From a virus, in the IMG/VR virus record IMGVR_UViG_3300020183_003705, positions 1-43,768 of that record: a DNA stretch of 43,768 nt, one strand, 5' to 3'. A program made the translations under genes and the position numbers. Positions within the stretch are counted from its first letter, which is position 1, and every line of letters starts with the position of its first letter. Positions 1,875 to 39,518 of the stretch are shown here, in pieces. The notes beneath the pieces were generated by a model. The model had not been told where the DNA came from, searched no databases, and saw only the letters and a program-made list of their open reading frames with translations.

Positions 1875-2606
1875 CTAAACACCAATAATTTTTAACCCCT
1901 TTTTTAATCTATAAATTGTTCTTTCAGAAATGTTAAGTTCGGAGGCGATCTCCCTATTTTTTTTACCCATATTTAATAAATCTATTATTTTTTTCTTTTT
2001 ATTATATTCTAAAGATGACTTATAATTTTCTACCTTATATTTTATTTTTTTAGTTTTACCACCTATTAGATTACTTACATTAGTAAGTTTTGAGATTAAA
2101 ATATTTTCCAAATTAAATGCCTCAACACTAGTTAATTCATTTTTAACGATTTTAATTATTGGGTCATTGCCGGACTCTATTATCATTTTTATTTTTTCTT
2201 TTTTATCTGTGTTTACATCAGAATCCAATAATTTTAAATGTTCTAACATCCTATTCCCATAACCCTTACCTACGTAAAATGGTTCATAATCAAATTCAAA
2301 TAATTCACCATCTATTAATAGTTTTATAGTTTCTTCTAATCTATTTAACGGATTCAAATAAACATAAACATAATTGTTAAAAACAATATCTGGTTCGTCA
2401 TTAATTATTGGTTCACCATTTAACAATTTCACATTTAATAAAACTTTTTCTTCTAATATTTCACATAAGTTTATGTCTAAATAATCTATTAAACATTCTT
2501 CAATAAACTCAGACATACTCATTCTTTCTCCCGTATTAATTTCTTGTGTTATTTTTTTATTAAAAATAACTTTTAAAAACTCTCTTGAAAACTTTAACCC
2601 TGACAT
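1875..2606 (-). CDS. GIY-YIG endonuclease with C-terminal helix-turn-helix
   Basis: A 243-residue protein. The GIY-YIG core lies at about 79-180: strand YVYVYLNP (79-86), PFYVGKGYGNRMLEHL (109-124; YVG equals YIG, with R119 as the likely catalytic Arg), ALNLE-like SVEAFNLENILI with E167, and a terminal NLIGG. Residues 205-236 form a resolvase-like helix-turn-helix (KKIIDLLNMGKKNREIA, then ISERTIYRLK). This matches a selfish homing endonuclease with a DNA-reading C-terminus. It sits directly upstream of the intein-split Clp gene, separated by 68 bases, and is divergent from the UVR protein. A TATTTATA element and a 15-bp palindrome lie just upstream of its ATG. A non-mobile phage nuclease remains possible. 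Confidence 0.82.
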   Translation of the reverse strand: MSGLKFSREFLKVIFNKKITQEINTGERMSMSEFIEECLIDYLDINLCEILEEKVLLNVKLLNGEPIINDEPDIVFNNYVYVYLNPLNRLEETIKLLIDGELFEFDYEPFYVGKGYGNRMLEHLKLLDSDVNTDKKEKIKMIIESGNDPIIKIVKNELTSVEAFNLENILISKLTNVSNLIGGKTKKIKYKVENYKSSLEYNKKKKIIDLLNMGKKNREIASELNISERTIYRLKKGLKIIGV

Positions 2607-5043: not shown

Positions 5044-5067
5044 AATGGTGGTTAAAAAACCACCATT
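5044..5067. terminator. Hairpin between convergent genes
   Basis: AATGGTGG (5044-5051) and CCACCATT (5060-5067) form a perfect 8-bp stem with an A-rich loop between convergent genes ending at 5043 and 5052. The minus gene's stop lies in the loop. There is no strong U-tract on either side, so a weak or transcript-stabilising terminator is likely. Confidence 0.45.
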
Positions 5068-5573
5068 ACTACATTAATACGATAACCACCGTTTTTTTTG
5101 ACGTAGGTCCCAATACCAATACTTGTTACGTTTTTTGTTAACATGTTTTTATTATGTGCATCAGAGTCTTTCCAAGTTTTTACGGTGTTTGAAGGTAATT
5201 TACTAAGTTGATCGTATGTTAATAAAAACATACCAAAACCTGTCTCCTTGTATAAATTTTCAGATACAATATTACAAGATCCAATATCTGAGTGATTAAT
5301 AGAGTTTGATGTTGCCAAAACTTCCGAATAAAGTTTAGCATAGTTCATTAAAGAAGAGTCAATAGATAGTTCATTTAAACCATTAGATTTCCTATAGTTA
5401 TTTATTAATTTAATAGTCTCAATAGAAGAACTATCAATATTAAAAGATTTTAAAATGTTATAATTTGATTTTTCAATCATACTAACCATTTCTTCTTTGT
5501 GGTTTAATTTAGTAGTTTGAGAAAAAATTTTAAACGTACAGATAAATAAAATAATAAACGATAGATTTTTCAT
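5052..5573 (-). CDS. Secreted CAP/SCP-domain protein (copy 1)
   Basis: 173 residues. Residues 1-19 are a signal peptide (MKNLSFIILFICTFKIFSQ). The CAP domain spans about 50-173: LINNYRKSNGLNEL, H94 in NHSDIGS, SENLY with E105, W134, H140 in DAHNKNML, then IGIGTYVKK and a terminal strand. CAP (CRISP/antigen-5/PR-1-like) proteins are extracytoplasmic. The two His and the Glu are the residues usually forming the CAP cavity. A related paralogue is next in the same direction (5650-6153). It has its own near-perfect Bacteroidota promoter at 5607-5636, unlike the virion genes. Function in the phage is unknown; action at the host envelope, for example in exclusion or lysis, is speculation. Capture from a host genome is possible. 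Confidence 0.82.
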   Translation of the reverse strand: MKNLSFIILFICTFKIFSQTTKLNHKEEMVSMIEKSNYNILKSFNIDSSSIETIKLINNYRKSNGLNELSIDSSLMNYAKLYSEVLATSNSINHSDIGSCNIVSENLYKETGFGMFLLTYDQLSKLPSNTVKTWKDSDAHNKNMLTKNVTSIGIGTYVKKNGGYRINVVMVVF

Positions 5574-5649: not shown

Positions 5650-6153
5650 TTATTTTAAAACCATAACACATTTAAGTTTGTATGAATTATCAAATGTGGT
5701 TACGGTTGATAAACCTATTTCTTTTGCATTAGAATTTAAAAGATTTATGTTGTGGTACTTTGATTTAACCCAACTATTAAAAATTTTATTTGGTGTTTTT
5801 TGTAAGTCTTCTACAGTATAATTAGGGGTTCCAATAGAATTAATTGTATTTATATTTTCACACAAATATCCATATTTTTCTATTTTTGAGTGTCCGGTTA
5901 CTTGACCAACTACTGATAATTTTGCCCAATTTTTTGAATAATCGGTAAGTTCTTTAGAAAATGTAAGTTCATTTAAGTTCTGAGATATTCTATAATTATT
6001 TATTAGTTTAATTACTTCTAAACTAACACTATCGTAATTAATTTTATTGTATGCTTCTTTACTTTTATTTATCCAATATTGATCGTTTGTGTTTTCCTGA
6101 GAAAAAGAAACTAAAATATTAAATAAAAATACTAATGAAAATAATTTATACAT
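5650..6153 (-). CDS. Secreted CAP/SCP-domain protein (copy 2)
   Basis: 167 residues with a signal peptide at 1-19 (MYKLFSLVFLFNILVSFSQ). CAP-domain marks: VIKLINNYRISQNLNEL, H88 in TGHSK, E99-N100, W128, H134 in KYHNINLL, and IGLSTV before the final strand. It is clearly paralogous to the gene at 5052-5573 (same LINNYR-x-x-x-LNEL block and spacing), so the pair arose by duplication. On the minus strand TATATTTG at 6175-6182 fits the -7 consensus TAnnTTTG, but I see no matching -33 box. A 76-base gap separates the copies, so each probably has its own promoter. Role in infection unknown. Confidence 0.8.
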   Translation of the reverse strand: MYKLFSLVFLFNILVSFSQENTNDQYWINKSKEAYNKINYDSVSLEVIKLINNYRISQNLNELTFSKELTDYSKNWAKLSVVGQVTGHSKIEKYGYLCENINTINSIGTPNYTVEDLQKTPNKIFNSWVKSKYHNINLLNSNAKEIGLSTVTTFDNSYKLKCVMVLK

Positions 6154-9673: not shown

Positions 9674-11452
9674 ATGTCATTAACAAGGGAACAAGCGTTA
9701 TTAGAATATGCGAAATGTGTAAATAATACACCTTATGCCCTTAAAACATATCTTCAAACTTATGACAACACACAATCTAAATACGTCCCATTAGAATTAT
9801 TTAATGACCAAGTTACGTTAGTAACTGATTACGACACTTGTGAAGAAAATATTGCATTAAAATACAGACAAGCTGGTGTCTCAACTGTTACGTCAGCATG
9901 GGCATCAAAAAGATTAGTTTTTGCAAAAAAAGAAAAACCTGAAAAAATCCTGATTATTGCTAACAAAATGGATACTGCGGTTGAGATGGCAAATAAAGTA
10001 AGAGCCTTTGTTGATCAATGGCCAAAATGGATTGGTGTTGGGTTTTCTTCTGAAAAAAATTCACAAAGACATTTTAAATTGACTAATGGATGTGAGGTAA
10101 AAGCAGTTGCAACATCAAAAGACGCTTTACGTGGTTATACACCAACAATTCTTATTTTTGATGAGGCGGCATATATTAATGCTGACGAAGACTTTTGGTC
10201 TGCGTGTATGGCATCTTTATCAACAGGAGGTAAGGTTATTGTAATTTCAACGCCAAACGGATTTGATCCAATCTACTATTCAATTTACAGTCAGGCGGTC
10301 AAAGGTATGAACGACTTTAAAATTACTGAAATGTATTGGTTTAGAGATCCAAGATACTCTAAAGATTTAAAATTGATTAAATGTAATGATATTATTCATT
10401 ACATTTTGAATAGAGGTGATTATATAGATGAAGAAATTACCATAGACTATAGTAAAATTAAAGTAAGTGAAAGAAACTTTGATGAAATAAAACAAAAAAT
10501 AGAAAACGAAGGTTACAAACCATACAGTTCTTGGTTTGAGGCGATGGCCAAAAAATTAAAGTTTGATAAGAGAAAGATTTCGCAAGAGTTAGAATGTAAT
10601 TTTTTAGGTTCGGGGGATAATGTTATTCCTGCAGAAACCATGAAAAAAATTAAAGATAAACACATTAAAGAACCTGAAAATAAATTTATGGGCGGATCTC
10701 TTTGGCAATGGAAAGAACCGGTTTCAGGTCACAGATATATTATGGGTGTTGACGTATCAAGAGGGGATAGTGAAGATTTTAGTACTTTATCTATTATTGA
10801 TTTTGATGAAAGAGAACAAGTATTAGAATATATTGGTAAAGTTCCTCCTGATATTTTGGCAGAAATCGCTTTTAAATGGGCAACTATGTATAATGCATTT
10901 ATTGTTACTGATATTACAGGTGGTATGGGGGTATCTACATCAAGAAAACTACAAGAACTTGGTTACAAAAATTTATATGTAGACGGTGTAAATCCTGCAG
11001 ATAAATGGAAGTGGGACCCTAAAAACCAAGATAAAATTCCAGGAATTAACTTTAACTCAAAAAGGGTTTTAATAATCCAATCATTTGAAGAAGCGTTAAG
11101 GTTTGATTTCGCAATGAGGTCACAAAGACTTTATAACGAATTGAACACGTTTGTGTATGTAAACGGTAGACCTGACCACCAAAAAGGTCAACATGATGAT
11201 TTAATAATGGCATTTGCTATGGCGATTTATGTTGGTGAAACTTCATTTGCTCAGTTAGAAAAAGCGACAGAACAAGCAAAGGCAATGCTAGAATCATGGT
11301 CAACTGAAAAAACACAGTATAAAGACTCATCAATGAATTTTAATCCTGGGTTACCTGTAAACCCATCAGATAGAATGACAATGAATAGAAACACTTTATC
11401 ACAAAGTGATTATCAAAAGTATTTATGGTTATTCGGAGGAAGAAGAGTTTAG
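9674..11452 (+). CDS. terL: Terminase large subunit (T4 gp17-like)
   Basis: 592 residues, full length for the family. ATPase: a Walker A-like RQAGVST at 65-71, Walker B ILIFDEAA with D163-E164, coupling motif ISTPNG at 191-196. Nuclease (RNase H fold): IMGVDVSRGDSED with D360, VTDITGGMG with D413, and HDDLIMAFAMA with D508/D509. The protein packages DNA into proheads by ATP hydrolysis and cuts the concatemer. Odd point: the canonical P-loop Lys of T4 (GKT) is replaced by GVS; K63 just upstream may serve instead. It heads the T4-ordered head block (terminase, portal, protease, scaffold, capsid). No intein or intron interrupts it. Confidence 0.96.
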   Translation: MSLTREQALLEYAKCVNNTPYALKTYLQTYDNTQSKYVPLELFNDQVTLVTDYDTCEENIALKYRQAGVSTVTSAWASKRLVFAKKEKPEKILIIANKMDTAVEMANKVRAFVDQWPKWIGVGFSSEKNSQRHFKLTNGCEVKAVATSKDALRGYTPTILIFDEAAYINADEDFWSACMASLSTGGKVIVISTPNGFDPIYYSIYSQAVKGMNDFKITEMYWFRDPRYSKDLKLIKCNDIIHYILNRGDYIDEEITIDYSKIKVSERNFDEIKQKIENEGYKPYSSWFEAMAKKLKFDKRKISQELECNFLGSGDNVIPAETMKKIKDKHIKEPENKFMGGSLWQWKEPVSGHRYIMGVDVSRGDSEDFSTLSIIDFDEREQVLEYIGKVPPDILAEIAFKWATMYNAFIVTDITGGMGVSTSRKLQELGYKNLYVDGVNPADKWKWDPKNQDKIPGINFNSKRVLIIQSFEEALRFDFAMRSQRLYNELNTFVYVNGRPDHQKGQHDDLIMAFAMAIYVGETSFAQLEKATEQAKAMLESWSTEKTQYKDSSMNFNPGLPVNPSDRMTMNRNTLSQSDYQKYLWLFGGRRV

Positions 11453-11490: not shown

Positions 11491-13338
11491 ATGGCAGAAC
11501 AAAAATATACAGTTTGGCAAAGATTAGGTCGAGTTTTTGGACCTAACTCAACATTAGACCAACAAGCACCAGTTTTTAAGTTTGACAAAAAAGAATTACT
11601 TAAAACAACAAATAAGTCTGAATTTGAAACAGAAAAATTACAAGCACAACAAAGTATGTACATTGGTAAACAATGGCAAAAGGTTGAAAGTAATTTATAT
11701 CAACAGGCGGTTTACTACGAACCGACAAGGATCGCTTCTTATTATGACTATGAATCAATGGAATACACTCCTGAAATTTCGGCGGCTCTTGACATTTATT
11801 CTGAAGAATCCACAACACCTGATAAAGATGGATATATATTAAAAATTTATTCAGAGTCTAAAAGAATTAAAACGGTATTGGCCGATCTATTTAATAATAG
11901 ATTAGATATTAACACAAATTTACCTATGTGGACAAGAAATACTTGTAAGTACGGGGATAATTTTGTTTATTTAAAACTTGATCCTGAAAGAGGAATTGTA
12001 GGGTGTCAACAATTACCAAACATTCAAGTAGAAAGATTGGAAAGAGGTATGAAAATAAATTCCTCAACATATGGTAAAGAAACAGAAAACGAGTCTTTAA
12101 AGTTTACTTGGAAAGAAAAAAACATGGAGTTTAATACTTGGGAAATTGGTCATTTTAGAATTTTAGGTGACGATAGAAAATTACCTTATGGTACTTCTAT
12201 GTTAGAAAAGGCAAGACGTATATGGAAACAATTACTACTTTGTGAAGATGCAATGTTAATTTATAGAGTTTCAAGAGCACCTGAAAGAAGAGTATTTAAA
12301 GTATTTGTTGGTAACATGGATGATAAGGATGTGGATGCATATGTACAAAGGGTTGCATCTAAATTTAAAAGAGATCAAATAGCCGACCCACAAACAGGAA
12401 ATGTTGATATGAGATATAACCAATTGGCGGTTGATCAAGATTACTTCATTCCTGTTAGGGACCCTGCGGCTACCATGCCTATTGAAACATTGGCCGGCGC
12501 AGCAAACTTAGCAGAAATTGCAGATATTGAATATATTCAGAAAAAATTAGTAACCGCACTTAGAATACCTAAAGCGTATTTAGGGTTTGAGGAAGCGGTT
12601 GGTGACGGTAAAAACCTTTCGTTACTTGATATTAGATTTGCAAGAACTATTAATAGAATACAAAAATCAATGATATCCGAATTAAATAAAATAGCAATCA
12701 TACATTTATTTTTATTAGGATTTGAAGATGAGTTGACGAACTTTACTTTAGGATTAAACAACCCATCTAAACAAGCAGATTTATTAGGTGTTGAGGTTTG
12801 GAAAGAAAAAATAACATTGTATAAAGATGCTGTTGCGGAAATACCAAATTCAGTAGCACCTGTTTCGGCATCATGGGCTAAAAAACACATTTTAGGGTTT
12901 TCTGATGAAGAAATAAGGTTAGATTTACAACAACAAAGAATTGAAAGAGCTGTCTCAGGTGAATTAGCTAAAACCGCCGAAATTATATCAAAAACAGGTC
13001 TTTTTGATAATATTGATAACCTATATAAACCTAAAAGTGGTGCCACATTTACTATGGGTACAGGAGGGTCAACGGACACTAGTGGAGGCGCTGCTTCAGA
13101 TACATCGTCTTCACCTGACATGGGTGGTGGTTCTATGGACATAGGGTCTGAACCACCGGCAGGAGGATCTGAACCACCCGCGTCTGAACCTACATTACCT
13201 GAAAGATTCAAAAAAGATGATTTAAATTTAATAGTAGAAGAAACACTTTTTAATGGTGTAGATTACATGGATTTATCAAAAGGAAGAAATTCGTTGGTCG
13301 AAATTAATAACAAACTGAAAGATTTGATTGATAAGTGA
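11491..13338 (+). CDS. Portal vertex protein (T4 gp20-like)
   Basis: 615 residues. Typical gp20 marks are RIASYYDYESMEYTPEISAALDIYSEE near the N-terminus, KYGDNFVYLKLD, RAPERRVFKVFVGN, ADIEYIQKKLVTALRIPKAYLG and FARTINRIQKSMISELNKIAI. Residues about 520-575 are a Gly/Ser/Pro-rich low-complexity insert before a short C-terminal helix. The protein forms the dodecameric DNA channel at one capsid vertex and docks the terminase. It follows TerL by 38 bases. Confidence 0.95.
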   Translation: MAEQKYTVWQRLGRVFGPNSTLDQQAPVFKFDKKELLKTTNKSEFETEKLQAQQSMYIGKQWQKVESNLYQQAVYYEPTRIASYYDYESMEYTPEISAALDIYSEESTTPDKDGYILKIYSESKRIKTVLADLFNNRLDINTNLPMWTRNTCKYGDNFVYLKLDPERGIVGCQQLPNIQVERLERGMKINSSTYGKETENESLKFTWKEKNMEFNTWEIGHFRILGDDRKLPYGTSMLEKARRIWKQLLLCEDAMLIYRVSRAPERRVFKVFVGNMDDKDVDAYVQRVASKFKRDQIADPQTGNVDMRYNQLAVDQDYFIPVRDPAATMPIETLAGAANLAEIADIEYIQKKLVTALRIPKAYLGFEEAVGDGKNLSLLDIRFARTINRIQKSMISELNKIAIIHLFLLGFEDELTNFTLGLNNPSKQADLLGVEVWKEKITLYKDAVAEIPNSVAPVSASWAKKHILGFSDEEIRLDLQQQRIERAVSGELAKTAEIISKTGLFDNIDNLYKPKSGATFTMGTGGSTDTSGGAASDTSSSPDMGGGSMDIGSEPPAGGSEPPASEPTLPERFKKDDLNLIVEETLFNGVDYMDLSKGRNSLVEINNKLKDLIDK

Positions 13339-13359: not shown

Positions 13360-14091
13360 ATGAGCACTTTCGGATCAATTAAAACAAAAATAGAAAACAC
13401 AGCAATTACGTTGGCAAAAAAACCTGAGTTTAAAAGGTTTATGTTTGAATTTAAACATATAGTTTTAGAAAATAAGGACTTATCCGAATTATATTTTATA
13501 TATGACGACTTATCAAAAAACAAAGGATTACCAAAAGAAATTTCAAATGATTATATTAATGAGGCAATTGAATATTCTCAAATATTAATAGAAAGCCAAA
13601 CTAAACGTTTGAGACATTTGAGTCATTGGATTAATTCTTGGAATAAGGTAACTTCGAATAATTACTACGACATAGATAATGTAATTTATAAAAAAGGTAT
13701 CAAAAATTTAGAAAGTATTTTAGAATCTAAAAAAAATATTAAAAATATAATCACAAAAGAAGAGACTAGAAAAGATATAACTGAATATGTAAACATACCT
13801 ATATCATCTATGGTAAAAATAGCTAACGATAATCTAAAAAATGAACTAACCGGTTTGAATGAAAACGAAAAGAAAGAATTAGAAAGTATTTTATCTATAA
13901 ATTTTGAAGAAATGAAAAAAGAATTTAAATCACTAAAAGAGGAGGTTATAAAAAAATTAAAATCAACTTTAAATGAATCTAGTGAAAAAGGGGTTGACGA
14001 GTCAATTAATAAAACAATTCAAAAAATAGTAGAAGCTAAATGTAACTATTATGATTACTATAAATTAAAAAAATTAAATGTTGGTTTATGA
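13360..14091 (+). CDS. Helical protein of unknown function in the head block
   Basis: 243 residues, mostly helical and Lys/Glu/Asn-rich; family not recognised. Features: an N-terminal MSTFGSIKTKIENTAITLAKK amphipathic stretch, a W-rich spot LRHLSHWINSWNKV at about 85-98, and a coiled-coil-like stretch ELESILSINFEEMKKEFKSLKEEVIKKLKS (about 170-205). It has its own TATTTATA element, and its stop overlaps the ATG of the next gene (14088-14091). Position between portal and protease suggests a role in head assembly. Confidence 0.6.
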   Translation: MSTFGSIKTKIENTAITLAKKPEFKRFMFEFKHIVLENKDLSELYFIYDDLSKNKGLPKEISNDYINEAIEYSQILIESQTKRLRHLSHWINSWNKVTSNNYYDIDNVIYKKGIKNLESILESKKNIKNIITKEETRKDITEYVNIPISSMVKIANDNLKNELTGLNENEKKELESILSINFEEMKKEFKSLKEEVIKKLKSTLNESSEKGVDESINKTIQKIVEAKCNYYDYYKLKKLNVGL

Positions 14092-14345
14092 AATTTTTAA
14101 AGTCATTACTTGGTTCTGGTAATCAAACACTATCGTCTAAAAGATTTACGGGAATACTTTGCGTATTATCATTGATTGTTGCATTATTTGTAAGTTTATT
14201 TTCTGCGGGTAAACTTTGTCCTAATGAAACATTAGTTGATTCCATTGCGTTATTAGCATTTGGGTCTTTAGGTCTAACTTCAACTGAAGTAATTTTTGGT
14301 AAAAAATACGAAGATAAAAATAAAAACGATCAAGAACTTAATTGA
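14088..14345 (+). CDS. Small two-helix membrane protein (holin-like?)
   Basis: 85 residues. Two hydrophobic segments at about 22-40 (FTGILCVLSLIVALFVSLF) and 49-66 (LVDSIALLAFGSLGLTST), with a short loop and a charged C-terminus (KKYEDKNKNDQ). The size and topology fit class II holins, but no diagnostic motif exists, so a membrane-associated head or lysis role is a guess. Start overlaps the preceding stop by 4 bases. Its 3' end overlaps the convergent bS21 gene by 16 bases. Confidence 0.6.
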   Translation: MKFLKSLLGSGNQTLSSKRFTGILCVLSLIVALFVSLFSAGKLCPNETLVDSIALLAFGSLGLTSTEVIFGKKYEDKNKNDQELN

Positions 14346-14518
14346 TTTTTTTGTTTGTATTTTGCTTTTTGAATTTGTGATCTTCTTTTTACTGAAGGTT
14401 TTTTATATTCTTGTCTTTCCTGTAGTTTTTGTATTTGTTTTGTTTTGTATATTTTAAACTTATACACCTTCAGAGCTTGCTCAATTGATTTTTCATTTTT
14501 TACAGGAATTATAATCAT
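14330..14518 (-). CDS. rpsU: Ribosomal protein bS21 homologue
   Basis: 62 residues, the length of bacterial bS21. The match is clear along the whole chain: PVKNEKSIEQALKVYKFK corresponds to the 'V..nE.id.ALk.yKrk' start. ERQEYKKPSVKRRSQIQKAKY (split here as ERQEYKKPSVKRR and QIQKAKY) follows the RQ-x-Y-x-KPSV-x-RR pattern of Bacteroidota bS21. Tyr54 sits at the position I recall as contacting the anti-Shine-Dalgarno region in Flavobacterium ribosomes. The gene runs against the head operon and has its own TATTTATA element at 14538-14545. Phage-encoded bS21 is known, and proposed to swap into host ribosomes late in infection. Inferred role: biasing translation toward phage mRNAs. Confidence 0.88.
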   Translation of the reverse strand: MIIIPVKNEKSIEQALKVYKFKIYKTKQIQKLQERQEYKKPSVKRRSQIQKAKYKQKNQLSS

Positions 14519-14537
14519 ATTTTTTTTGGTTTTGATA

Positions 14538-14545
14538 TATAAATA
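14538..14545 (-). promoter_or_regulatory. TATTTATA element of the bS21 gene
   Basis: An exact match on the minus strand, 19 bases before the bS21 ATG (14518). On the plus strand the same bases read TATAAATA, the T4 late promoter core, so transcription toward 14624 from here cannot be excluded. Confidence 0.45.
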
Positions 14546-14596
14546 GTAAGATATTTTTTAATTTTTGACAACAGTTTGTTTTTTTATTATTATTAC

Positions 14597-14614
14597 AAAA
14601 AATAAACTTGTAAG
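14597..14614 (+). promoter_or_regulatory. Host-like promoter element before the gene at 14624
   Basis: The 14-mer AAATAAACTTGTAA (14600-14613) is identical to one upstream of the UVR gene. TAAACTTG resembles the Bacteroidota -7 box. A TTTG lies at 14575-14578, but the 24-base spacer is longer than usual. Confidence 0.35.
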
Positions 14615-14623: not shown

Positions 14624-15073
14624 ATGAAAAAAGGAAAAACATCAAAATTAAATATTTTTGATGACGCAAAATGTTATTATGGTACAGTAGATTCTAAAGA
14701 ATTAAAATCCGTTTATTTAGTATTGCAAACTTGGATAGAACCATTAAATGAAGATGAAAATTGGAACAAGATAACAGGTACGATAAAAAGAAAAATATCA
14801 CACACGCTTATAGAAGTAATAGAAACCTCAACATTTGAAAGAAAACAAATAGTAGATTTAGATTTAAGAACAAGTGGAATACAAAAAAATAAAAAAAGTT
14901 TTTTAAATTTAGAAATAACAATTTTCGTTCACGATAAAACAATAGATTTTAAATCACTAATATTACGTTCTAAAATAAAAAAAATAATATCATCAGTTTA
15001 TTATGATGATTTAAAAAAATCAAAGTATTTTACATTAAGTAAAACAAAAAACAAAGAAACTGAATTAATATAA
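14624..15073 (+). CDS. Protein of unknown function in the head block
   Basis: 149 residues, family not recognised. The sequence is beta-rich in the middle (VYLVLQTWIEPLNEDENW, ITGTIKRKISHTLIEVIE, FLNLEITIFVHDKTIDFK) and ends in basic segments (SKIKKIISSVYYDDLKKSKYF). No signal peptide or membrane segment. It lies 20 bases before the protease gene and after a 105-base gap that carries a host-like promoter element, so it may be expressed earlier than its neighbours. Confidence 0.6.
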   Translation: MKKGKTSKLNIFDDAKCYYGTVDSKELKSVYLVLQTWIEPLNEDENWNKITGTIKRKISHTLIEVIETSTFERKQIVDLDLRTSGIQKNKKSFLNLEITIFVHDKTIDFKSLILRSKIKKIISSVYYDDLKKSKYFTLSKTKNKETELI

Positions 15074-15093: not shown

Positions 15094-15804
15094 ATGAAAA
15101 TATTAGGACCAAACGATACAGGTAAAGGAATATTAGTTGAGTGGGATGCGGGTACAATTAACCCAAATGAATATAGAAACAGTAAAGTTATTAAAGAATC
15201 TTATGGTCAATTAGATTATTCAAAACCTTTCGAATTCTTCGCCACATTACAAAAATATGGAGTTCCAAATAGGAATGGAAGAATTTATCCTGAGAAAATA
15301 TTAAAAAGAGAAGCAGAAAGATATAAAGAAATGATCGAGAGGGGTATGTCAATATCTGAATTGAATCACCCAGAGTCTTCGTTAATTGATTTAGATAGAG
15401 TTGCTCATTTAATAACCGATGTTTGGTGGGAAGATAATGTACTTGTTGGAAAAATTAAACTATTAACAACACCTGGTTTTCACGAAAGAGGTATAGTATC
15501 TTCAAAAGGTGATATTGCAGCCAATATGATGAGGCAAGGTGTAACTATGGGTGTATCGTCAAGAGGTGTTGGGTCATTAGTAAAAAAAGGTGAACAAAAT
15601 GAAGTGCAGGACGATTTCGAATTGATTTGTTTTGATTTAGTATCTTCACCGTCGACTCCAGGGGCTTATCTTTACTTAAACAAAGGTGATAGAACTAAAT
15701 ACGAAGAAAAATTAACTGAAAACGAAAATATAGAATTATCATCTAATCCTTTGAGTAAATCTGTTGACTTAATGAAAAGATTATCCGATTATTTAGGTAA
15801 TTAA
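15094..15804 (+). CDS. Prohead core protease (T4 gp21-like)
   Basis: 236 residues. The family core spans about 47-195: FFATLQKYGVPNRNGRIYP, SELNHPESS with catalytic His92, a strand WWEDNVLVGKIKLL, GVTMGVSSRGVGS with candidate Ser155, and FDLVSSPSTPGAYLYL. T4 gp21 is a serine-type protease of the prohead core that cleaves scaffold, internal proteins and gp23 after [IL]-x-E, and then degrades itself. The capsid protein downstream has a fitting INE site at 58-60. Order protease, small protein, scaffold, capsid equals the T4 21-22-23 arrangement. Confidence 0.92.
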   Translation: MKILGPNDTGKGILVEWDAGTINPNEYRNSKVIKESYGQLDYSKPFEFFATLQKYGVPNRNGRIYPEKILKREAERYKEMIERGMSISELNHPESSLIDLDRVAHLITDVWWEDNVLVGKIKLLTTPGFHERGIVSSKGDIAANMMRQGVTMGVSSRGVGSLVKKGEQNEVQDDFELICFDLVSSPSTPGAYLYLNKGDRTKYEEKLTENENIELSSNPLSKSVDLMKRLSDYLGN

Positions 15805-17828: not shown

Positions 17829-19625
17829 ATGGGAGCATTATTAGAATCAGGTCTTGTTGGTAACATAGGTTTGAAACACCTTAAAGTTATCAAAGAAGAT
17901 ACAATTAACAAATGGGATAGATTAGGATTCCTAGACGGTCTTAAAGGACACGTTAAAGAGAACATGGCACAATTATATGAAAATCAAGCATCTCACCTAA
18001 TTAACGAAGCGGCTGCGACTGATAGCTCAGGTTCATTTGAAACTGTAGTTTTCCCAATCGTAAGACGCGTATTTTCTAAATTATTGGCTAATGATTTAGT
18101 ATCAGTACAAGCAATGAACTTACCTATCGGTAAATTGTTCTACTTCGTACCTAAAATTCAAAGTTATCAAGCGGCAGGATCAAACTCTATTGATCATTAT
18201 CCACCAATCGGCGGACCAACTTCTCCAAATTCAGATCCTACTCAAGGGTACACTGACGGAAGTAAAAACCTTTATGATAGATTTTACGAAGGAAATGAAG
18301 CCGGATTAGATCCTGCAGGTCTTTTCGATTATTCAAAAGGTTCTTATACTGCTATTACTTCAACCGCAGTACAAACAGTTGCATGGTCTAACGGTTCTTT
18401 AGTACAATCAGGATACACAACAGGTGAATATAGAAAAGTTCTTTTAGCACTTTCAGGATTTTCTTCAGCAGGTGCTGGAAAACTTATCGGACCTGATGGT
18501 CAAGAAATGGATAACGAAGCGTTCCTTTCAGACTTAACTATCAACGCTGTAAGTTCTGGGGCGTTCTCAGGAGCTGGTTCAGGTAACCTATTATTTAGAG
18601 TAGTAACTCAAAAATATGGTAAAGGTATCGTACAATATGGTTCTCAAGCAACTACAACATGGTCTTCAACAGGTAATGGAGGATCTTATGATGATATTTG
18701 TGACCAAGCAGGTATTATCTACTTAGAAGTTGATTTACAAGTTCCTTGTTCAATCGGAGCAAACTCTTTAGATGGTTACTCAGGTTTAACTACAACTGTC
18801 GCTGGTACAACAACTGCAGGTTCTCAATTTGAAGCAACTTATAGAAGATACAAAGAATTGGAATTTGAAGACAAAATTGGTGAAGTTTCTTTTGACCTTG
18901 AGTCAGTTACTGTTTCTGTTACAGAAAGAAAACTAAGAGCGCAATGGTCACCTGAATTGGCACAAGACGTTTCTGCATTCCATAACATCGACGCTGAGGC
19001 TGAATTAACAGCTTTATTGTCTGAACAAGTGGCAGCAGAAATCGATAGAGAAATCTTGAGAGACCTTAGAAAAGGAGCAGCTTGGAACCTAAGATGGGAT
19101 TACAACGGATGGAAAAGAGGTACTGCTTCTAACCCATTAACTCAATACACACAAAAAGATTGGAATCAAACTTTGATTACAGCAATCAACCAAATTTCAG
19201 CACAAATCCACAAGTCTACATTAAGAGGTGGAGCTAACTGGATTGTTGTTTCTTCTGAGATTTCTGCAATCTTTGATGATTTAGAATACTTCCACGTATC
19301 TAACGCGTCTCCTGAGCAAGATCAATACAATATGGGTATTGAAAGAGTTGGTACATTGGCAGGAAGATACCAAGTGTATAGAGACCCTTACTTCCCACCA
19401 AATACAGTATTGTTGGGTCACAAAGGTTCTTCATTGTTAGACACAGGGTACGTTTACGCACCGTATGTTCCTCTACAATTGACACCTACTATGTATAACC
19501 CATTCAACTTCACGCCTATCAAAGGTATTATGACCAGATACGCTAAGAAGATGGTAAATAATCGCTTCTACGGACGAATTACCGTTGATGGTGTTAGAAC
19601 GTTTGATTTAAGAGAATTGAGATAA
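17829..19625 (+). CDS. Major capsid protein (T4 gp23-like)
   Basis: 598 residues. The family signature is strong: WDRLGFLDGL (29-38), QLYENQASHLINEAAATDSS (49-68), VVFPIVRRVFSKLLANDLVSVQ, MNLPIGKLFYFVP. Later come KIGEVSFDLESVTVSVTERKL, LSEQVAAEIDREILRDL and the closing KMVNNRFYGRITVDGV. The predicted prohead-protease cut is after E60 (I58-N59-E60), near the T4 gp23 site at residue 65. Codon choice is unlike the neighbours: many ATC, AAC and TTC codons and higher GC, which fits very high expression. A strong terminator follows. No intron or intein interrupts the gene, but an HNH endonuclease gene sits right behind it. Confidence 0.97.
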   Translation: MGALLESGLVGNIGLKHLKVIKEDTINKWDRLGFLDGLKGHVKENMAQLYENQASHLINEAAATDSSGSFETVVFPIVRRVFSKLLANDLVSVQAMNLPIGKLFYFVPKIQSYQAAGSNSIDHYPPIGGPTSPNSDPTQGYTDGSKNLYDRFYEGNEAGLDPAGLFDYSKGSYTAITSTAVQTVAWSNGSLVQSGYTTGEYRKVLLALSGFSSAGAGKLIGPDGQEMDNEAFLSDLTINAVSSGAFSGAGSGNLLFRVVTQKYGKGIVQYGSQATTTWSSTGNGGSYDDICDQAGIIYLEVDLQVPCSIGANSLDGYSGLTTTVAGTTTAGSQFEATYRRYKELEFEDKIGEVSFDLESVTVSVTERKLRAQWSPELAQDVSAFHNIDAEAELTALLSEQVAAEIDREILRDLRKGAAWNLRWDYNGWKRGTASNPLTQYTQKDWNQTLITAINQISAQIHKSTLRGGANWIVVSSEISAIFDDLEYFHVSNASPEQDQYNMGIERVGTLAGRYQVYRDPYFPPNTVLLGHKGSSLLDTGYVYAPYVPLQLTPTMYNPFNFTPIKGIMTRYAKKMVNNRFYGRITVDGVRTFDLRELR

Positions 19626-27742: not shown

Positions 27743-28480
27743 TTAATACTGATTATTTATTTTTCTGACAGTTTCAATATATAATGTTTTGTATTTTTTT
27801 AAATAAATTCTTATTTCTTTTGTGTTAAGATTTGTCATTTCTCTCAAAGTTAAAAGAACAACATTCTTGTTGAACTTATTATTATCATTACCAATAAAAA
27901 TATTTCCATAGTTGTCAAATAAATCAATAAGTGCAACCCCTAATTTTGATTCGTTTTCATTTAGTCTTGAATCTTCTACATAATTTTTTAAATCAATCAA
28001 AAACAATTCAATTATTTTTTCTGCGCCTATTTTTTCGAATTCCATATAATATACCATATCAGGTCTATTTTCTAAACTGGCTGAAATATCCTCATATGAA
28101 ATTTTTCTGTTCATATCTTTTTGGTCTTTTTGGATTTGCCCCATTAAATAATTTTTGCAAATGGTACCAAAATATGAATATGCTTTTTTGTTTTTTGCCG
28201 GTCTAAATTTATCCACTTTAGTCATAAGAAAAGAATGTGTGTCTGTGTGGATGTCTTTATAATCCATATCTTTTCTATATAACTTATACCTTCTGATTAT
28301 AGATTCTATCATCTTATCTAAAGGGTCTCTAAGAAATTCATTATATATTTCTTCTTTTTCTTCACGAGATTCGGCGGTGATGTATTTTTTCACCGCCTCT
28401 TCTTCACGGACATCAAAATAATTTGTTTTTTTTACCGTCTTTTGCTTTTCGATGCTGTTTTCATCATGGTTTAACTGCAT
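27743..28480 (-). CDS. Late sigma factor (T4 gp55-like)
   Basis: 245 residues. Residues about 54-122 look like sigma region 2: LDKMIESIIRRYKLYRKDM, HTDTHSFLMTKVDKFRP and KKAYSYFGTICKNYLMGQI. This is the 'D...Fr..kn..AysYf.tI..N.l...i.k' pattern of gp55-type phage sigma factors. There is no clear region 4. gp55 proteins direct host RNA polymerase to late promoters together with a sliding clamp. The repeated TATTTATA elements in this window are the natural candidate target. It lies between tail genes and the first glycosyltransferase, overlapping the latter by 1 base. Confidence 0.78.
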   Translation of the reverse strand: MQLNHDENSIEKQKTVKKTNYFDVREEEAVKKYITAESREEKEEIYNEFLRDPLDKMIESIIRRYKLYRKDMDYKDIHTDTHSFLMTKVDKFRPAKNKKAYSYFGTICKNYLMGQIQKDQKDMNRKISYEDISASLENRPDMVYYMEFEKIGAEKIIELFLIDLKNYVEDSRLNENESKLGVALIDLFDNYGNIFIGNDNNKFNKNVVLLTLREMTNLNTKEIRIYLKKYKTLYIETVRKINNQY

Positions 28481-29293: not shown

Positions 29294-30358
29294 TTATTTT
29301 TCTTCTGATATTTTAAGTTTATCTAATTGTTCTGTGAACAAATCATGTCTAGTTTCAAAGTAATCGTTAAATGTATTTATAACCTGATCTTCAAAAACTT
29401 CTTTTTTATTATAATTGGATGATGTTTTTTGCATTTCAATATATAGTTCATCATTAATATTATCTTCTAACCAGTTTTGTGTGAAATTTGCAGCAACATC
29501 AACAATGTCATTAAATTCTTGTGTCCACACACCATTCATATCACTCATCCATTCTGGTTTTAGTGCTGGTATTTTACCAATTACAGGTGTATTAGATGAC
29601 ATAGACTCTAATGGGTATGTACCAAAACCTGACTCATAATCTACCCAAATCGATAAATAAGATTCTTTTAAAAATTTAGCAAAATCCTCCTGTTTAATAC
29701 CTCTCATGTCCCTAAAAGTAATCCATCTATATTGTGGGTATTTTAAATAAAAAGTTTTGATTATTTTTGCAGTATCCCTTTGTTCTCTCGTGTGTATTGC
29801 GATAATTGGTTTGGAAGGTTTTTCTTTTTTTGTAAAGAATTCGCTGATGTATGGCTCAATAATGTCATAACTAACTCCTCTCATTATTTCTGACAAATGT
29901 TTTTTTTGTGTTTCGTTTGTTGTAATACATTTAATAAATCCATATTGAGACCAAGAAACGCCAGGAGGTAATGTTTCTAACATGTGGTCATACGCTTGAC
30001 ATAAAACAATTTTTCCACAAGGAAAACTTTTTAATTGGTCCATAACATGTCCATAAATTTCAGGAATAACAATGAAATCTTCGGGTGAAATAGCCAAATT
30101 CTGACCTTCAATTGGTTGGTGAGGTAACTCCATGTACTTAGGATCTAACCATTCTGAAACACCTTTGTAGTCGTTGGCTTCATGAATAATAATAGAATTA
30201 TATCCATTATTTTTCAAAGTTAATGCTATGTCATAGATATATTTAATAGACGCCTTGGGATTACCTTTAGTGTCTTGAACTAAAAAATATAATCTTGCAT
30301 TTTTGTTTTTTAAGTTTTCAATTGATTTCTCAATTTTTTCTAATTTTTCTAATTCCAT
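29294..30358 (-). CDS. GT-B fold glycosyltransferase
   Basis: 354 residues. N-terminal charged helix, then RLYFLVQDTKGNPKASIKYI and alternating strands and helices. C-terminal lobe: PIIAIHTREQRD, WITFRDMRGI, then ESGFGTYPLESMSSNTPVIG (about 255-275). This last segment is the donor-binding segment of GT4-like enzymes, with E-x(7)-E-like spacing. A classical signal peptide or membrane anchor is absent. Partner gene is the GT2 at 28480, one base away. Substrate unknown. Confidence 0.75.
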   Translation of the reverse strand: MELEKLEKIEKSIENLKNKNARLYFLVQDTKGNPKASIKYIYDIALTLKNNGYNSIIIHEANDYKGVSEWLDPKYMELPHQPIEGQNLAISPEDFIVIPEIYGHVMDQLKSFPCGKIVLCQAYDHMLETLPPGVSWSQYGFIKCITTNETQKKHLSEIMRGVSYDIIEPYISEFFTKKEKPSKPIIAIHTREQRDTAKIIKTFYLKYPQYRWITFRDMRGIKQEDFAKFLKESYLSIWVDYESGFGTYPLESMSSNTPVIGKIPALKPEWMSDMNGVWTQEFNDIVDVAANFTQNWLEDNINDELYIEMQKTSSNYNKKEVFEDQVINTFNDYFETRHDLFTEQLDKLKISEEK

Positions 30359-30361
30359 TTT

Positions 30362-30649
30362 TTAAAACTTTTTAAGTATTTTATTTATTAATAGAGTATT
30401 GAATGATATCTTGAAAGGTATGGTTAAGTTTTTTGATCCATGTAACCCCAAACTTTCATCCAAGTCTTCTCTTTCTGTTAATATTACCTCGATCAAACTT
30501 TTAAAAGTTTCAAATCTTGTAACGCTTATTTGTTGTTCAGGTGTTTCTGTTTCTCCTGAGACAACGGGTAATACTGATTTTTCATAACTAACTTGCTTTT
30601 CTAATTCATCAATATCAATGTAATAATTTTCTCCTAAAAATTCTAACAT
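30362..30649 (-). CDS. Small protein of unknown function
   Basis: 95 residues, family not recognised. Acidic N-terminal half (YYIDIDELEKQVSYEKS, SGETETPEQQISVTRFETF), then a helix FKSLIEVILTEREDLDESL and a hydrophobic end (KISFNTLLINKILKKF). Packed between a glycosyltransferase and the HAD-like gene with gaps of 2-3 bases, so it belongs to the operon. Virion or regulatory role cannot be told. Confidence 0.55.
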   Translation of the reverse strand: MLEFLGENYYIDIDELEKQVSYEKSVLPVVSGETETPEQQISVTRFETFKSLIEVILTEREDLDESLGLHGSKNLTIPFKISFNTLLINKILKKF

Positions 30650-30651
30650 AT

Positions 30652-31293
30652 TTATAATTTTTTTAACACTTCGTCAAATTCTTTCAATGTATTTATTTCA
30701 TATTCACAATCGACACTTTTATTGTAATTCGTATTATATTTGATAACAATTTTACCTTTCGGTTTTTCTAATAATAAGATAGGATTTGCCGTAAGTAAAA
30801 TATCAATTTCATCCCACATTGAATTTATTGTTGAATTTGAGTAAAATTTAACCTTTTCCAATAGGCATCCGAACTTAGATAAGAAAAATAAAGATGCTGG
30901 TTTTGATTTACCCATCTCGTCAGAAACAATCAATAATTCATTATTATCTCTATATTTTAAATAAATTTCATTAAGATCATTAAAAGTAAAAGTTTCAGTA
31001 GAACCCGCATGACCAAAAATTTGCATAGCAAAATCTTCATACATAAATTCGTATAATTCATTTTCATCAATAAATTTGAAGTGATCTATTAAATTTAATG
31101 TTGTAACATCACTTAAAATTTTATATTCAAACTCTTCAGGTGTTGATATCTCTTCGGTATTTCCCGATATGTCTAACTCAAAAGTTTTACTATCGTCATT
31201 TTTTTCTTCAATCATATGTTTTTCATATAATTGAGTAAACTTACCAATAGTGTCCCTTAACACTCCATTAATTTCAATCCCTATTCTCTTCAT
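30652..31293 (-). CDS. Degenerate HAD-fold protein
   Basis: 213 residues. The order of motifs is that of HAD hydrolases: GIEINGVLRDT (5-15) at motif I, ELLIVSDEMGKSKPASLFFL at motifs II/III and WDEIDILLTANP at motif IV. The catalytic DxDxT of motif I is replaced by E-I-N-G-V, so both acidic residues that act as nucleophile and acid/base are altered. The fold may be kept for binding rather than catalysis, for example of a nucleotide. A 5'-nucleotidase-like ancestor is likely. Its ATG overlaps the end of PhoH by 20 bases. Confidence 0.55.
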   Translation of the reverse strand: MKRIGIEINGVLRDTIGKFTQLYEKHMIEEKNDDSKTFELDISGNTEEISTPEEFEYKILSDVTTLNLIDHFKFIDENELYEFMYEDFAMQIFGHAGSTETFTFNDLNEIYLKYRDNNELLIVSDEMGKSKPASLFFLSKFGCLLEKVKFYSNSTINSMWDEIDILLTANPILLLEKPKGKIVIKYNTNYNKSVDCEYEINTLKEFDEVLKKL

Positions 31294-32008
31294 ATTTTTT
31301 TAATATTCTACTAATTAGTGGATTCCTTACCACATCCTCATCCCTAAACTCAAATACCCCTACATCATTTACATCATTAAACTTTCTAATTGCGTCATAA
31401 AGACCTGATTGTTTTTTGTCTTTATAACGGTCAGTTTGTTCAATGTCTCCTGATATAAAGAATTTACTATTGAAACCTATTCTTGTCAATAGTAATTTCA
31501 TCTGATTTGGGCTTGAGTTTTGCGCTTCCTCAAATATTAAAATTGTATTATCTATATTCATTCCTCTCATATATGCTAAAGCAAATACCTCAATAATTTC
31601 AGCGTCCTTTAATTTTTCTCTTGCATCTTTACCTATAATTTTGTTTAATAGATAATAAGATGGGAAAATGTATGGATCTAATTTTTCTTCTAAATTACCG
31701 GGTAATGAACCAAGTTTTTCTTCTGCCTCAACTGCTGGTCTAACAATAACAAGTTTTTCATAATGATTGGTTGGGTCCATTAATAAATCTACGGCAGCTT
31801 TCATTGCTATATATGATTTACCAACACCAGCAGGTCCTGAACAAATAGTTATTTGATTATTTTTTAAAAGGTTATAATAATGTTCTTGATTCTCTGTAAG
31901 AAATTTATTTTTTACTTTTTTTTTGATAACTGAATTTATAAAATCTTTTCTTGAAAAGGGTTTGGATTCTTGTTCTTCAGATTGTTGTTGTGGTTTTTTT
32001 CTTGTCAT
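31274..32008 (-). CDS. phoH: PhoH-family ATPase
   Basis: 244 residues. Walker A GPAGVGKS at 58-65, conserved VIVRPAVEAEEKLGSLPG (88-104), Walker B TILIFEEAQN (155-164), sensor-like FFISGDIEQTD and a terminal RNPLISRILKKYE. PhoH is common in phages; RNA helicase or RNase-linked functions are discussed, and the phosphate-regulation idea is not settled. It is embedded between GDP-fucose synthesis and the degenerate HAD gene in the minus operon. Its N-terminal 20 residues are polar and Gln-rich. Confidence 0.93.
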   Translation of the reverse strand: MTRKKPQQQSEEQESKPFSRKDFINSVIKKKVKNKFLTENQEHYYNLLKNNQITICSGPAGVGKSYIAMKAAVDLLMDPTNHYEKLVIVRPAVEAEEKLGSLPGNLEEKLDPYIFPSYYLLNKIIGKDAREKLKDAEIIEVFALAYMRGMNIDNTILIFEEAQNSSPNQMKLLLTRIGFNSKFFISGDIEQTDRYKDKKQSGLYDAIRKFNDVNDVGVFEFRDEDVVRNPLISRILKKYEENRD

Positions 32009-32009
32009 A

Positions 32010-32924
32010 TTATTTTCTTATAATATTATAGTTGTTTTCAAAATATTCAATAGTTTCTTTTAAACCTTCATAAAGCGGTGTGAATTTAAAATCAGGTAAA
32101 TATTTTTTTATTTTTGAATTGTCACTTGGTTTTCTAAATTGCCCCTCTGGTTTTTCTTTATCCCAAATAATATTACCCTTGTAATTCATAATTTCTATTA
32201 TAACATCAACAACATCTTTTATTGATATTTCATCAGATGTTGAAAGTATTATAGGTTCACTTTCTTCGTAGTTGTCTAAAACCCATTCTGTTAGTTTTGC
32301 AACATCACGGCTAAATATAAACTCCCTTAATGGTTTACCTGAACCCCAAATAATAAAATCTGTTTTATTTTCTCTTGCTAAGTAACATTTATGAATTAAT
32401 GAAGGAATTACGTGTCCATTTACAATATCGTAATTGTCGTTTGGTCCGTAAATGTTTGTTGGAATTACTGATTTGTAATTTAATCCATATTGTTCTTTGT
32501 ATGCTCTAATTTGTACATCTGCCATTCTTTTTGCATAAGCGTATGCATCATTTGAAAAATGTGGGGGACCTAAATGTATTTTTGATTCAGTAAGGGGATA
32601 TTCTACATTATTTGGAAAAATACAAGTAGATAAAAAAGCCACAAGATTTTTTATATTATGTTGTCTTGATGATTCAATAACATTTGTATTAATCATAATA
32701 TTATCATAGAAAAACTTACCCTTATGGTTCATATTTCCGCCAACACCACCAACTTTACCTGCACAATGTATGATACTATCAAAATTATTTAACCCAACTA
32801 ACGTGTTGACTTCTGAGGTTATTCTAATGTCAACCTCTTTAGATGTTGGTTTAAAGTATTTATCTCCAATAAATTCTGATCCAACCAAACCATAACCACC
32901 GGTAACTAATATCTTATTTTGCAT
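32010..32924 (-). CDS. fcl: GDP-L-fucose synthase
   Basis: 304 residues. SDR fold: ILVTGGYGLVGS (5-16), HCAGKVGGVGGN, the family mark NMNHKGKFFYDNIMINTNVI, STCIFPNN and the catalytic YAYAKR (Y-x-x-x-K). NIYGPNDNYD and FIFSRDVAKL follow the WcaG/Fcl pattern. The enzyme epimerises and reduces GDP-4-keto-6-deoxy-D-mannose to GDP-L-fucose with NADPH. The substrate-producing Gmd is encoded directly upstream with an 11-base overlap. The product is the donor for the GT10 and GT11 enzymes of the same operon. Confidence 0.92.
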   Translation of the reverse strand: MQNKILVTGGYGLVGSEFIGDKYFKPTSKEVDIRITSEVNTLVGLNNFDSIIHCAGKVGGVGGNMNHKGKFFYDNIMINTNVIESSRQHNIKNLVAFLSTCIFPNNVEYPLTESKIHLGPPHFSNDAYAYAKRMADVQIRAYKEQYGLNYKSVIPTNIYGPNDNYDIVNGHVIPSLIHKCYLARENKTDFIIWGSGKPLREFIFSRDVAKLTEWVLDNYEESEPIILSTSDEISIKDVVDVIIEIMNYKGNIIWDKEKPEGQFRKPSDNSKIKKYLPDFKFTPLYEGLKETIEYFENNYNIIRK

Positions 32925-33891
32925 AGTAATCTAACCAATATTCAATCATTTCATCTAACATAGTTTCAAATGTGTATTTAGGTTCCCATCCCAATTTGTT
33001 TTTTAACTTTGAGGAATCTCCTTTTAAATCATGTAATTCTTCGGGTCTGAAATGTTTTTCATCAATAACCACATAGTCTTCATAATTTAAATTTAACTTT
33101 TTAAAAGTGTAATCACATAGTTCTTTAACTGAATGAGATACACCTGTGGAACAAACATAATCTTCAGGATTTTCAGATTGTAACATTAACCACATCGCTT
33201 CGACATAATCCTTAGCGTGGCCCCAATCTCTTGATGCCGACAAATTACCTAAATGTAATTTATCTTGTAGTCCTAAACTAATTCTAACCGCAGCCTTTAC
33301 GACTTTATTTGTTACAAAATTAGTTCCCCGTCTTGGTGATTCGTGATTAAACAAAATCCCATTCCATATTTTCATACCATAAGAATTTCTATAGTTTCTA
33401 CAAATATTATATGAAAATACTTTAGCACAACCATAAGGTGATACTGGATTCATTGATGTCGTTTCTCTTTGATATCCGTCGTCATCAATAGTATTACCAA
33501 ACATTTCTGAGGAAGATGCTTGATATATCTTTGAATGTGGTGAAACCATTCTTACCGCCTCTAATAAATTTAAAGTCCCTAAACCTGTTGCATTTGCGGT
33601 GTAAATTGGTTGGTCAAAACTAATTCTTACGTGTGATTGAGCTGCTAAATTATAAACTTCATATGGCTGTATTAGTGAAATTACTCTGACTAATGATGCC
33701 ATATCTGTTAAATCAGCATACTCTAAATTTACTAAATTTTGCTCTCTTAAGTGTTCAATTCTACTTGATTGGGTTTCTGAAACTGAATTTCTCTTAACTA
33801 TACCCCAAACCTCATAGTTTTTACTAATTAGTAATTCGGCCAAGTATGACCCATCCTGACCATTTATACCGGTTATTAACGCTTTTTTCAT
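32914..33891 (-). CDS. gmd: GDP-mannose 4,6-dehydratase
   Basis: 325 residues from the ATG at 33891. An ATG at 33930 would add a hydrophobic, non-family stub and is rejected. Marks: KKALITGINGQDGSYLAELL (G-x-x-GQDG), NLAAQSHVRISFDQP, ASSSEMFG with catalytic S and E129, SPYGCAKVFSYN with Y153 and K157, NHESPRRGTNFVT, and ASRDWGHAKDYVEAMW. The reaction is GDP-D-mannose to GDP-4-keto-6-deoxy-D-mannose. It is coupled to fcl downstream. Together the two give GDP-fucose from a metabolite every host cell has. Confidence 0.95.
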   Translation of the reverse strand: MKKALITGINGQDGSYLAELLISKNYEVWGIVKRNSVSETQSSRIEHLREQNLVNLEYADLTDMASLVRVISLIQPYEVYNLAAQSHVRISFDQPIYTANATGLGTLNLLEAVRMVSPHSKIYQASSSEMFGNTIDDDGYQRETTSMNPVSPYGCAKVFSYNICRNYRNSYGMKIWNGILFNHESPRRGTNFVTNKVVKAAVRISLGLQDKLHLGNLSASRDWGHAKDYVEAMWLMLQSENPEDYVCSTGVSHSVKELCDYTFKKLNLNYEDYVVIDEKHFRPEELHDLKGDSSKLKNKLGWEPKYTFETMLDEMIEYWLDYYAK

Positions 33892-33931
33892 ATATTTTTT
33901 AAAAATACACGTAAAAACAATAAAGGTCAAG

Positions 33932-34240
33932 TTAATATTTTGAAAAAAAATCGGTGTCTGTTATACCTTTATCATCTATATAGTAATCGGCAGATATTTT
34001 AACACCCACCCTTAATTTATGATATTTCACACCCCAATTACTAAGTTGCTTTTCAGTTTTTTTATACCAATCTATTTTCGACTCAGAACCTCTAGCTGTT
34101 TCAATGATTATTGTATGACCATTATCAAATAGTTCATTAACTAGCTCAATCCTACTTTGGTAGGGTTCTGAATTTTCATAATTTAATCCATTAAGTTTAC
34201 ATAATGTACCATCTAAATCAAAACAATAAATTTTACTCAC
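33932..34240 (-). CDS. Small HAD phosphatase of a sugar-acid pathway
   Basis: 102 residues. Motif I is intact: CFDLDGTLC with D8 and D10. Later IIIETARG (motif II-like T), and ISADYYIDDKG (82-92) with motif IV Asp residues. It resembles the compact capsule/nonulosonate-linked HAD phosphatases. Its ATG overlaps the neuB stop by 8 bases. The inferred job is dephosphorylation of the NeuB product (9-phosphate) or another sugar phosphate. Its own substrate is not readable. Confidence 0.75.
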   Translation of the reverse strand: MSKIYCFDLDGTLCKLNGLNYENSEPYQSRIELVNELFDNGHTIIIETARGSESKIDWYKKTEKQLSNWGVKYHKLRVGVKISADYYIDDKGITDTDFFSKY

Positions 34241-35081
34241 CTCTTAAAGTTTTTCTTTTTGATAATTCGCTTTTAATAACTTCTCTTGGGCCATAACCAT
34301 TACCACTAGCTATCTCAATATCTCTAATACCTTTTATTAGTTTTATTAACCCACTAGGTTCAACTGAAGCCATTTGGTCACTACCCCATATTGATCTATC
34401 TAATGTGATATGTCTTTCAATCCATGTCGCACCTAATGTTGTTGCTGCAAAAGTTGTTGTTAACCCAAATTCATGTCCACTATAACCTATTTCTTTGTTA
34501 GGGTATTTTTCAGTTAACCATTTAATATAACCTAAATTTAATTCGTCTATTGGTGATGGGTAAGTTGAATTTGTATGAAAAATCAAATCTGGTTCACAAA
34601 TATTTATACATTTAACAATTTCTTCTTCAGTACTCATGCCAGTTGAAATCATTAAATAATCAGATTTTTCTTTTGCGTATTTAATCAATTCGTCATTAGT
34701 TATTAATGCAGATGGTATTTTCATCATTATTTTTTCTTCATCATTAAATTTAGTAGTATATTGACTCATAAAATCAACTGAACCTAAATCCCACACAGAT
34801 GCAAACCAACCTATTTTCTTTTCTCTACAATACCTATCAATTTCATCATATTCTTCTTTACCAAATTCTATTTTATGTTTATATTCTAAATAAGTCATTT
34901 CACCCCATGGTGTTGATTTAATTTTATTTTTTTCATCCTTTGGAACACAAACATCTGGATTTCTTTTTTGAAATTTGACGTAATCACATTTTGCTATAAC
35001 AGCAACGTCAATTAATTTTTTTGTCATTTCTAATGAACCATTGTGGTTTATACCTATTTCACCAATAATTTTTGTTTTCAT
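34233..35081 (-). CDS. neuB: Nonulosonic acid synthase (NeuB family) lacking the SAF domain
   Basis: 282 residues. NeuB TIM barrel: IIGEIGINHNGSLEMTKKLI (5-24), CDYVKFQKRN, WFASVWD, MKIPSALITNDELI, MISTGMST, HTNSTYPSP, IGYSGHEFGL, GATWIERHITLDRSIWGSDQ. The family condenses phosphoenolpyruvate with an N-acetyl sugar to a sialic-type acid (Neu, Leg or Pse). Odd: the protein ends at KSELSKRKTLRGE, exactly where other members (about 340-350 residues) continue into the C-terminal SAF (antifreeze-like) domain. That domain normally lends a substrate-binding residue to the partner subunit. A shortened substrate site or different acceptor is possible. ATG overlaps the neuA stop. Confidence 0.9.
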   Translation of the reverse strand: MKTKIIGEIGINHNGSLEMTKKLIDVAVIAKCDYVKFQKRNPDVCVPKDEKNKIKSTPWGEMTYLEYKHKIEFGKEEYDEIDRYCREKKIGWFASVWDLGSVDFMSQYTTKFNDEEKIMMKIPSALITNDELIKYAKEKSDYLMISTGMSTEEEIVKCINICEPDLIFHTNSTYPSPIDELNLGYIKWLTEKYPNKEIGYSGHEFGLTTTFAATTLGATWIERHITLDRSIWGSDQMASVEPSGLIKLIKGIRDIEIASGNGYGPREVIKSELSKRKTLRGE

Positions 35082-35844: not shown

Positions 35845-35863
35845 AATTGTTTTTTAACTTTTG

Positions 35864-37181: not shown

Positions 37182-37182
37182 A

Positions 37183-39517: not shown

Positions 39518-39518
39518 G

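Follow-up and report, generated by a model that had tools for sequence, protein, structure and literature searches.

The window analysed here is an IMG/VR virus record of 43,768 bases with 28.7% G+C, likely a fragment. It contains a T4-type head block (TerL, gp20 portal, S77 protease, gp23) and, inside this block, a gene for ribosomal protein bS21 on the strand opposite to these genes. The features discussed below are:

9674..11452, plus strand: terminase large subunit (TerL; PF03237 7.4e-12, phrog_2 4.4e-38)
11491..13338, plus strand: T4-type portal (gp20; PF07230 2.1e-76)
14088..14345, plus strand: 85-aa protein with hydrophobic segments and of holin-like size, convergent with bS21 (from sequence)
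14330..14518, minus strand: phage bS21 (rpsU-like), 62 aa, Tyr54 conserved (PF01165, 7JIL alignment, dN/dS)
14519..14537, minus strand: 19-nt A-rich stretch lacking a Shine-Dalgarno sequence (SD), from promoter motif to ATG (duplex energy)
14538..14545, minus strand: putative late-type promoter motif TATTTATA of bS21 (exact 8-mer counts, sense orientation)
14565..14593, plus strand: predicted TTGACA-N17-TATTAT promoter of the divergent gene CN149 (11/12 consensus matches)
14601..14607, plus strand: AATAAAC leader motif of CN149 (79/93 CN149 upstreams)
14624..15073, plus strand: CN149, conserved 149-aa protein divergent from bS21, adjoining it across the portal-based set
15094..15804, plus strand: prohead protease (gp21, S77; PF03420 3.2e-22)
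17829..19625, plus strand: major capsid protein (MCP, gp23; PF07068 1.1e-72)
27743..28480, minus strand: putative phage sigma factor, late-sigma-like (weak phrog_234 and Foldseek matches)
31274-32008: PhoH (PF02562, E 2e-64)

The bS21 gene and its relatives

The bS21 reading frame runs on the minus strand from an ATG at 14518 to a stop codon ending at 14330 and comprises 62 codons. A sequence-only reading of this DNA had placed a Bacteroidota-type bS21 in the interval 14330-14545, opposed to the head operon. Gene and orientation stand, with a minus-strand bS21 inside the plus-strand TerL/portal/protease/gp23 block; the interval holds as coding sequence only for 14330-14518, while 14519-14545 is leader and promoter. 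In a profile search, the 62-aa product matches Pfam Ribosomal_S21 (PF01165) at E 8.7e-11, scoring 41.8 bits against a curated cut-off of 27 and covering profile positions 2-54 of 55, which assigns it to the bS21 family. Its residues 1-57 align without gaps to F. johnsoniae bS21 in 7JIL, Tyr54 falls in register with Tyr54, and the protein thereby carries the aromatic residue 54 that characterizes the Bacteroidia type. The motif R-Q-x-Y-x-K-P-S-V-x-R-R is found as well, so that both sequence marks named in the earlier reading are borne out.

The phage protein is about 49% identical to a Flavobacterium bS21 (G025). Across the sampled Bacteroidota genomes, the nearest cellular copies reach at most 54% identity and no homologue lies above this value. 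In the annotated phage collection there is no close bS21 homologue; only metagenomic records match, the best at 52% identity. Relatives are encoded on 123 IMG/VR stretches. Among them, dN/dS has a median of 0.12 over 379 pairs, which is indicative of purifying selection. The gene overlaps the convergent 85-aa frame tail-to-tail by 16 nt, and this overlap is kept in 72/75 relatives. Being under selection, the phage bS21 gene is presumably a working one.

Conservation of the position was judged on 80 IMG/VR loci fetched by their portal. Nearly all relatives with a contig spanning the region carry a minus-strand bS21 between portal and protease. The one exception is L084, with a small lipoprotein-like ORF at the usual bS21 place (L084:4450-4722, minus strand) and the divergent 149-aa gene retained. 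We considered bS21 and CN149 as an obligate pair and rejected this, as L084 has CN149 without bS21 at that place; bS21 may lie elsewhere in L084. The AlphaFold model of CN149 is confident (pLDDT 89) and finds no match in the PDB at E<=0.001. The viral library returned only an uncharacterised myovirus protein, and a functional assignment by fold was therefore dropped. CN149 may correspond to the 'bS21_CN' of Chen et al.

The closest known systems include the bS21-encoding Bacteroidetes myophages described by Chen et al. in 2022 (PMC9723584; ISME Commun 2:31), for which a reverse-strand bS21 in the same block, an aromatic residue 54 and a link to the anti-SD were reported. The sequence-only reading had treated this link as an open idea, which is superseded by that work. 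Gene, position, Tyr54 and anti-SD link are thus already published, and the record studied here adds another member. As in those phages, bS21 is encoded in reverse between two hypothetical genes within TerL-portal-protease-MCP, and PhoH, common to all bS21 phages of that study, is present. The eight complete genomes of Chen et al. span 293-331 kb at 31.0-33.7% GC; the 43.8-kb window, likely a fragment, is lower in G+C (28.7%). The annotated phage collection holds no record close enough to be one of their phages, for which the criterion is a TerL similarity above ~70% to the described clades. Phage-encoded homologues also occur in Pelagibacter phage HTVC008M (Mizuno et al. 2019) and in huge phages (Al-Shayeb et al. 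2020), and the hosts of these other bS21 phages include bacteria with ordinary SD use. What is added here is the contrast between host and phage leaders and the promoter pair. For neither did we find an earlier report in a literature search that was thin on subscription journals and preprints; the text of Chen et al. does not touch on promoter or autoregulation, and its SD passages leave the phage leader aside.

The remainder of the window contains further recognizable genes. On the minus strand, a ClpA/B-like ATPase fragment (1513-1806; phrog_4871, E 1.9e-17) is broken off in its Walker A motif, apparently by the short N-terminal part of a split intein. It is followed by a 390-aa ORF (295-1467) and an intein-like stretch running into the window edge (1-294). 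Adjoining the broken gene is a probable homing endonuclease that combines GIY-YIG and helix-turn-helix parts (1875-2606, minus strand; PF22945, E 1.2e-09). Two CAP-like secreted proteins, each with a signal peptide, are encoded side by side at 5052-5573 and 5650-6153 (minus strand), the first recognized by PF00188 (E 4.2e-16) and the second by eye. After the tail genes, a long minus-strand run of sugar and glycan genes (29294-43565), read from sequence only, appears to encode glycosyltransferases, sugar epimerases/dehydratases, a NeuB-like synthase, a cytidylyltransferase and an aminotransferase, in agreement with the surface-sugar genes of the phages of Chen et al.

Promoter motifs between bS21 and the divergent gene

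The 3' end of TATTTATA is separated from the bS21 ATG by 19 nt, the distance given in the sequence-only reading. The exact motif is found within 60 nt upstream of bS21 in 61 of 95 distinct relatives, where dinucleotide-shuffled sequences give 2.0 on average. Orientation deserves consideration, as the T4 late motif, which we take to be TATAAATA, is the reverse complement of TATTTATA. The element could thus be an opposite-strand TATAAATA pointing away from bS21. This candidate was rejected because the sense form dominates: among 740 gene upstreams of relatives, TATTTATA occurs in sense in 165 and as its reverse complement in 22. Sense TATTTAT precedes g243 in 97/97, the protease in 80/81, bS21 in 72/95, the scaffold in 49/69 and MCP in 20/48 cases, and it is scarce upstream of CN149 (1/93), g85 (2/48) and g69 (0/75). 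Judged by these counts, TATTTATA is a predicted sense-oriented promoter motif of the phage group that marks the head units g243, bS21, protease and scaffold. Because it is positioned at capsid genes, we infer that this promoter is late, in line with the late-type promoter proposed earlier and in the orientation assumed there. Chen et al. report that bS21 is transcribed late in such phages.

The divergent gene CN149 has a predicted promoter of another type, TTGACA-N17-TATWWT. Its spacer is exactly 17 nt in 58/99 distinct relatives and 15-19 nt in 67/99. The -35 element shares bases with a TTGTCA of the bS21 strand, which raised TTGTCA-N17-TACTAT as a sigma-70-type bS21 promoter sharing its -35 with CN149. 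This second candidate was also rejected, since its spacing is unstable among distant relatives. In close relatives, TTGTC and TATTTATA stand 25-26 apart; in distant ones the spacing, judged by eye, ranges over roughly 13-31, and with such wide variation the element is more plausibly the -35 of CN149. The motif AATAAAC is located ~23-30 nt before the start codons of CN149, scaffold and MCP in relatives, in the window at positions 14601, 16126 and 17803 on the plus strand. It is present upstream of MCP in 41/48 and of the scaffold in 39/69 relatives, its reverse complement in 0-1.

The putative sigma factor belongs to a family in which 10 of 12 members weakly match phrog_234 'late sigma transcription factor' (best E 0.003). 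Among viral structures, its Foldseek hits, obtained with a model of low confidence (pLDDT 64.5), are chiefly sigma factors of phages. Sigma70_r2 matches at E 0.015 only, and a profile search against PDB sequences returned nothing relevant.

Residue 54 and the phage-specific substitutions

We compared 92 distinct phage bS21 with 54 distinct Flavobacteriia-type host proteins. Of the comparison with host bS21 that had been proposed earlier, residue 54 was taken up: it is Tyr in 78, His in 11 and Phe in 3 phage proteins, and hence aromatic in 92/92. In Bacteroidia bS21, this aromatic residue stacks on A1534 of 16S rRNA. Its conservation speaks for a phage protein that, like that of the host, sequesters the anti-SD. 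The opposite function, in which phage bS21 would expose the anti-SD and move initiation to SD-containing mRNAs, could draw on the 14/92 proteins with His or Phe instead of Tyr54 and on a few phage leaders with a moderate SD (L092, L098). We consider it very improbable, with the residue aromatic throughout and SDs rare on phage genes (3.4% overall versus 1.9% in shuffles). The effects of Y54A and deltaC were described by McNutt et al. 2023 (PMC9976891).

Positions other than 54 set the phage proteins apart from those of the hosts. F23 is replaced by V/I and R21 is lost in 92/92, G27 is changed to K/R in 90/92, T28 to Q in 88/92 and A37 to E in 86/92. Chen et al. found a like substitution pattern in 61 sequences, with the same divergent positions 21, 23 and 28, and described the mRNA-facing side of bS21 together with a model of specialised ribosomes. 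According to this model, the mRNA-facing N-terminal half of phage bS21 would shift mRNA choice to phage leaders. The model stands as a rival because the five changed positions cluster where, according to Chen et al., bS21 faces the mRNA. AATAAAC would be a candidate for a shared leader signal, as it is common to some phage mRNAs, MCP and scaffold included, and rare in host upstreams (4/302). However, it is absent from the leader of bS21 itself and from many late genes, and competition with host bS21 or escape from a protease could account for the substitutions just as well. That phage bS21 alters which mRNAs are initiated, as the sequence-only reading suggested, is possible; the specialised-ribosome version of this idea appears rather unlikely to us.

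The location of the gene within the head block, and the packaging of bS21 in the virion raised as a possibility by Chen et al., could also fit a non-ribosomal role, for instance as an RNA-binding protein or one packaged into the virion and delivered on infection. Against such a role speaks the conservation of the entire bS21 fold together with residue 54. Another phage's bS21 is reported to be incorporated into E. coli ribosomes (PMC6375957), and we give a non-ribosomal role little credence.

Leader contrast and a possible takeover of host feedback

Duplex energies were computed against CACCUCCUUUCU, which we take to be the Flavobacterium 16S 3' tail. All 42 distinct Flavobacteriia rpsU leaders contain an extended SD, with -17.5 to -20.7 kcal/mol. 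None of the 87 distinct phage bS21 leaders reaches -13 kcal/mol or below, and 4/87 have a moderate SD (-7.4 to -12.2 kcal/mol). The leader of L002, identical to that of the bS21 in the window, gives +1.6 kcal/mol. The contrast (42/42 versus 0/87) corresponds to a Fisher value of 6e-35, which ignores relatedness among leaders and refers to sampled Flavobacteriia, from which the true host of the phage may differ. In the wider Bacteroidota phylum, 33/52 sampled rpsU copies reach -13 kcal/mol, accessory paralogs included; extended SDs on rpsU are therefore common across the phylum and not universal. Among the sampled Bacteroidota genomes, G146 carries three copies of bS21. Its main copy has an SD of -17.6 kcal/mol; in the accessory copies (L313:6845-7015, L314:6658-6822) the SD is weak or missing (-9.8 and -1.4 kcal/mol). 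Both accessory copies adjoin sigma-70 family genes, possibly forming sigma/bS21 pairs for specialised ribosomes.

The extended SD of F. johnsoniae rpsU is preferred by bS21-free ribosomes, which results in autoregulation (McNutt et al. 2023). The phage gene resembles host rpsU in its ungapped residues 1-57, Tyr54 and the KPSV motif, and differs from it in the substitutions listed above and in a leader that lacks the extended SD on which this autoregulation is based. On sequence grounds, it is the phage protein that is of Bacteroidia type and not its regulation, and phage bS21 probably escapes the SD-based control of the host copy.

We regard it as fairly likely that a late-expressed bS21, blind to the host feedback, enters host 30S subunits and sustains SD-independent initiation. 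A late-type promoter of its own on the minus strand would drive production of the protein at the time when capsid proteins are made. It would then most likely enter the host 30S subunit, either replacing or joining host bS21. There, residue 54 would keep the anti-SD hidden and initiation would remain SD-independent, which would suit the phage mRNAs because they lack SDs. Since the phage leader has no extended SD, production of phage bS21 would proceed regardless of bS21 supply. As bS21-free 30S subunits are filled by the phage protein, bS21-free ribosomes would vanish, and host rpsU should consequently fall through the host's own feedback. More tentatively, and with some doubt on our side, the missing extended SD and the autoregulatory silencing of host rpsU may together let the phage protein take over without a dedicated protease.

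McNutt et al. discussed phage bS21 alongside rpsU autoregulation and speculated about a bS21-degrading protease. If our proposal is true, phage bS21 could displace host bS21 without such a protease, and the phage would seize a translational feedback loop and not a promoter. The contrast between host and phage rpsU leaders allows a simple reporter test in the genetically workable F. johnsoniae.
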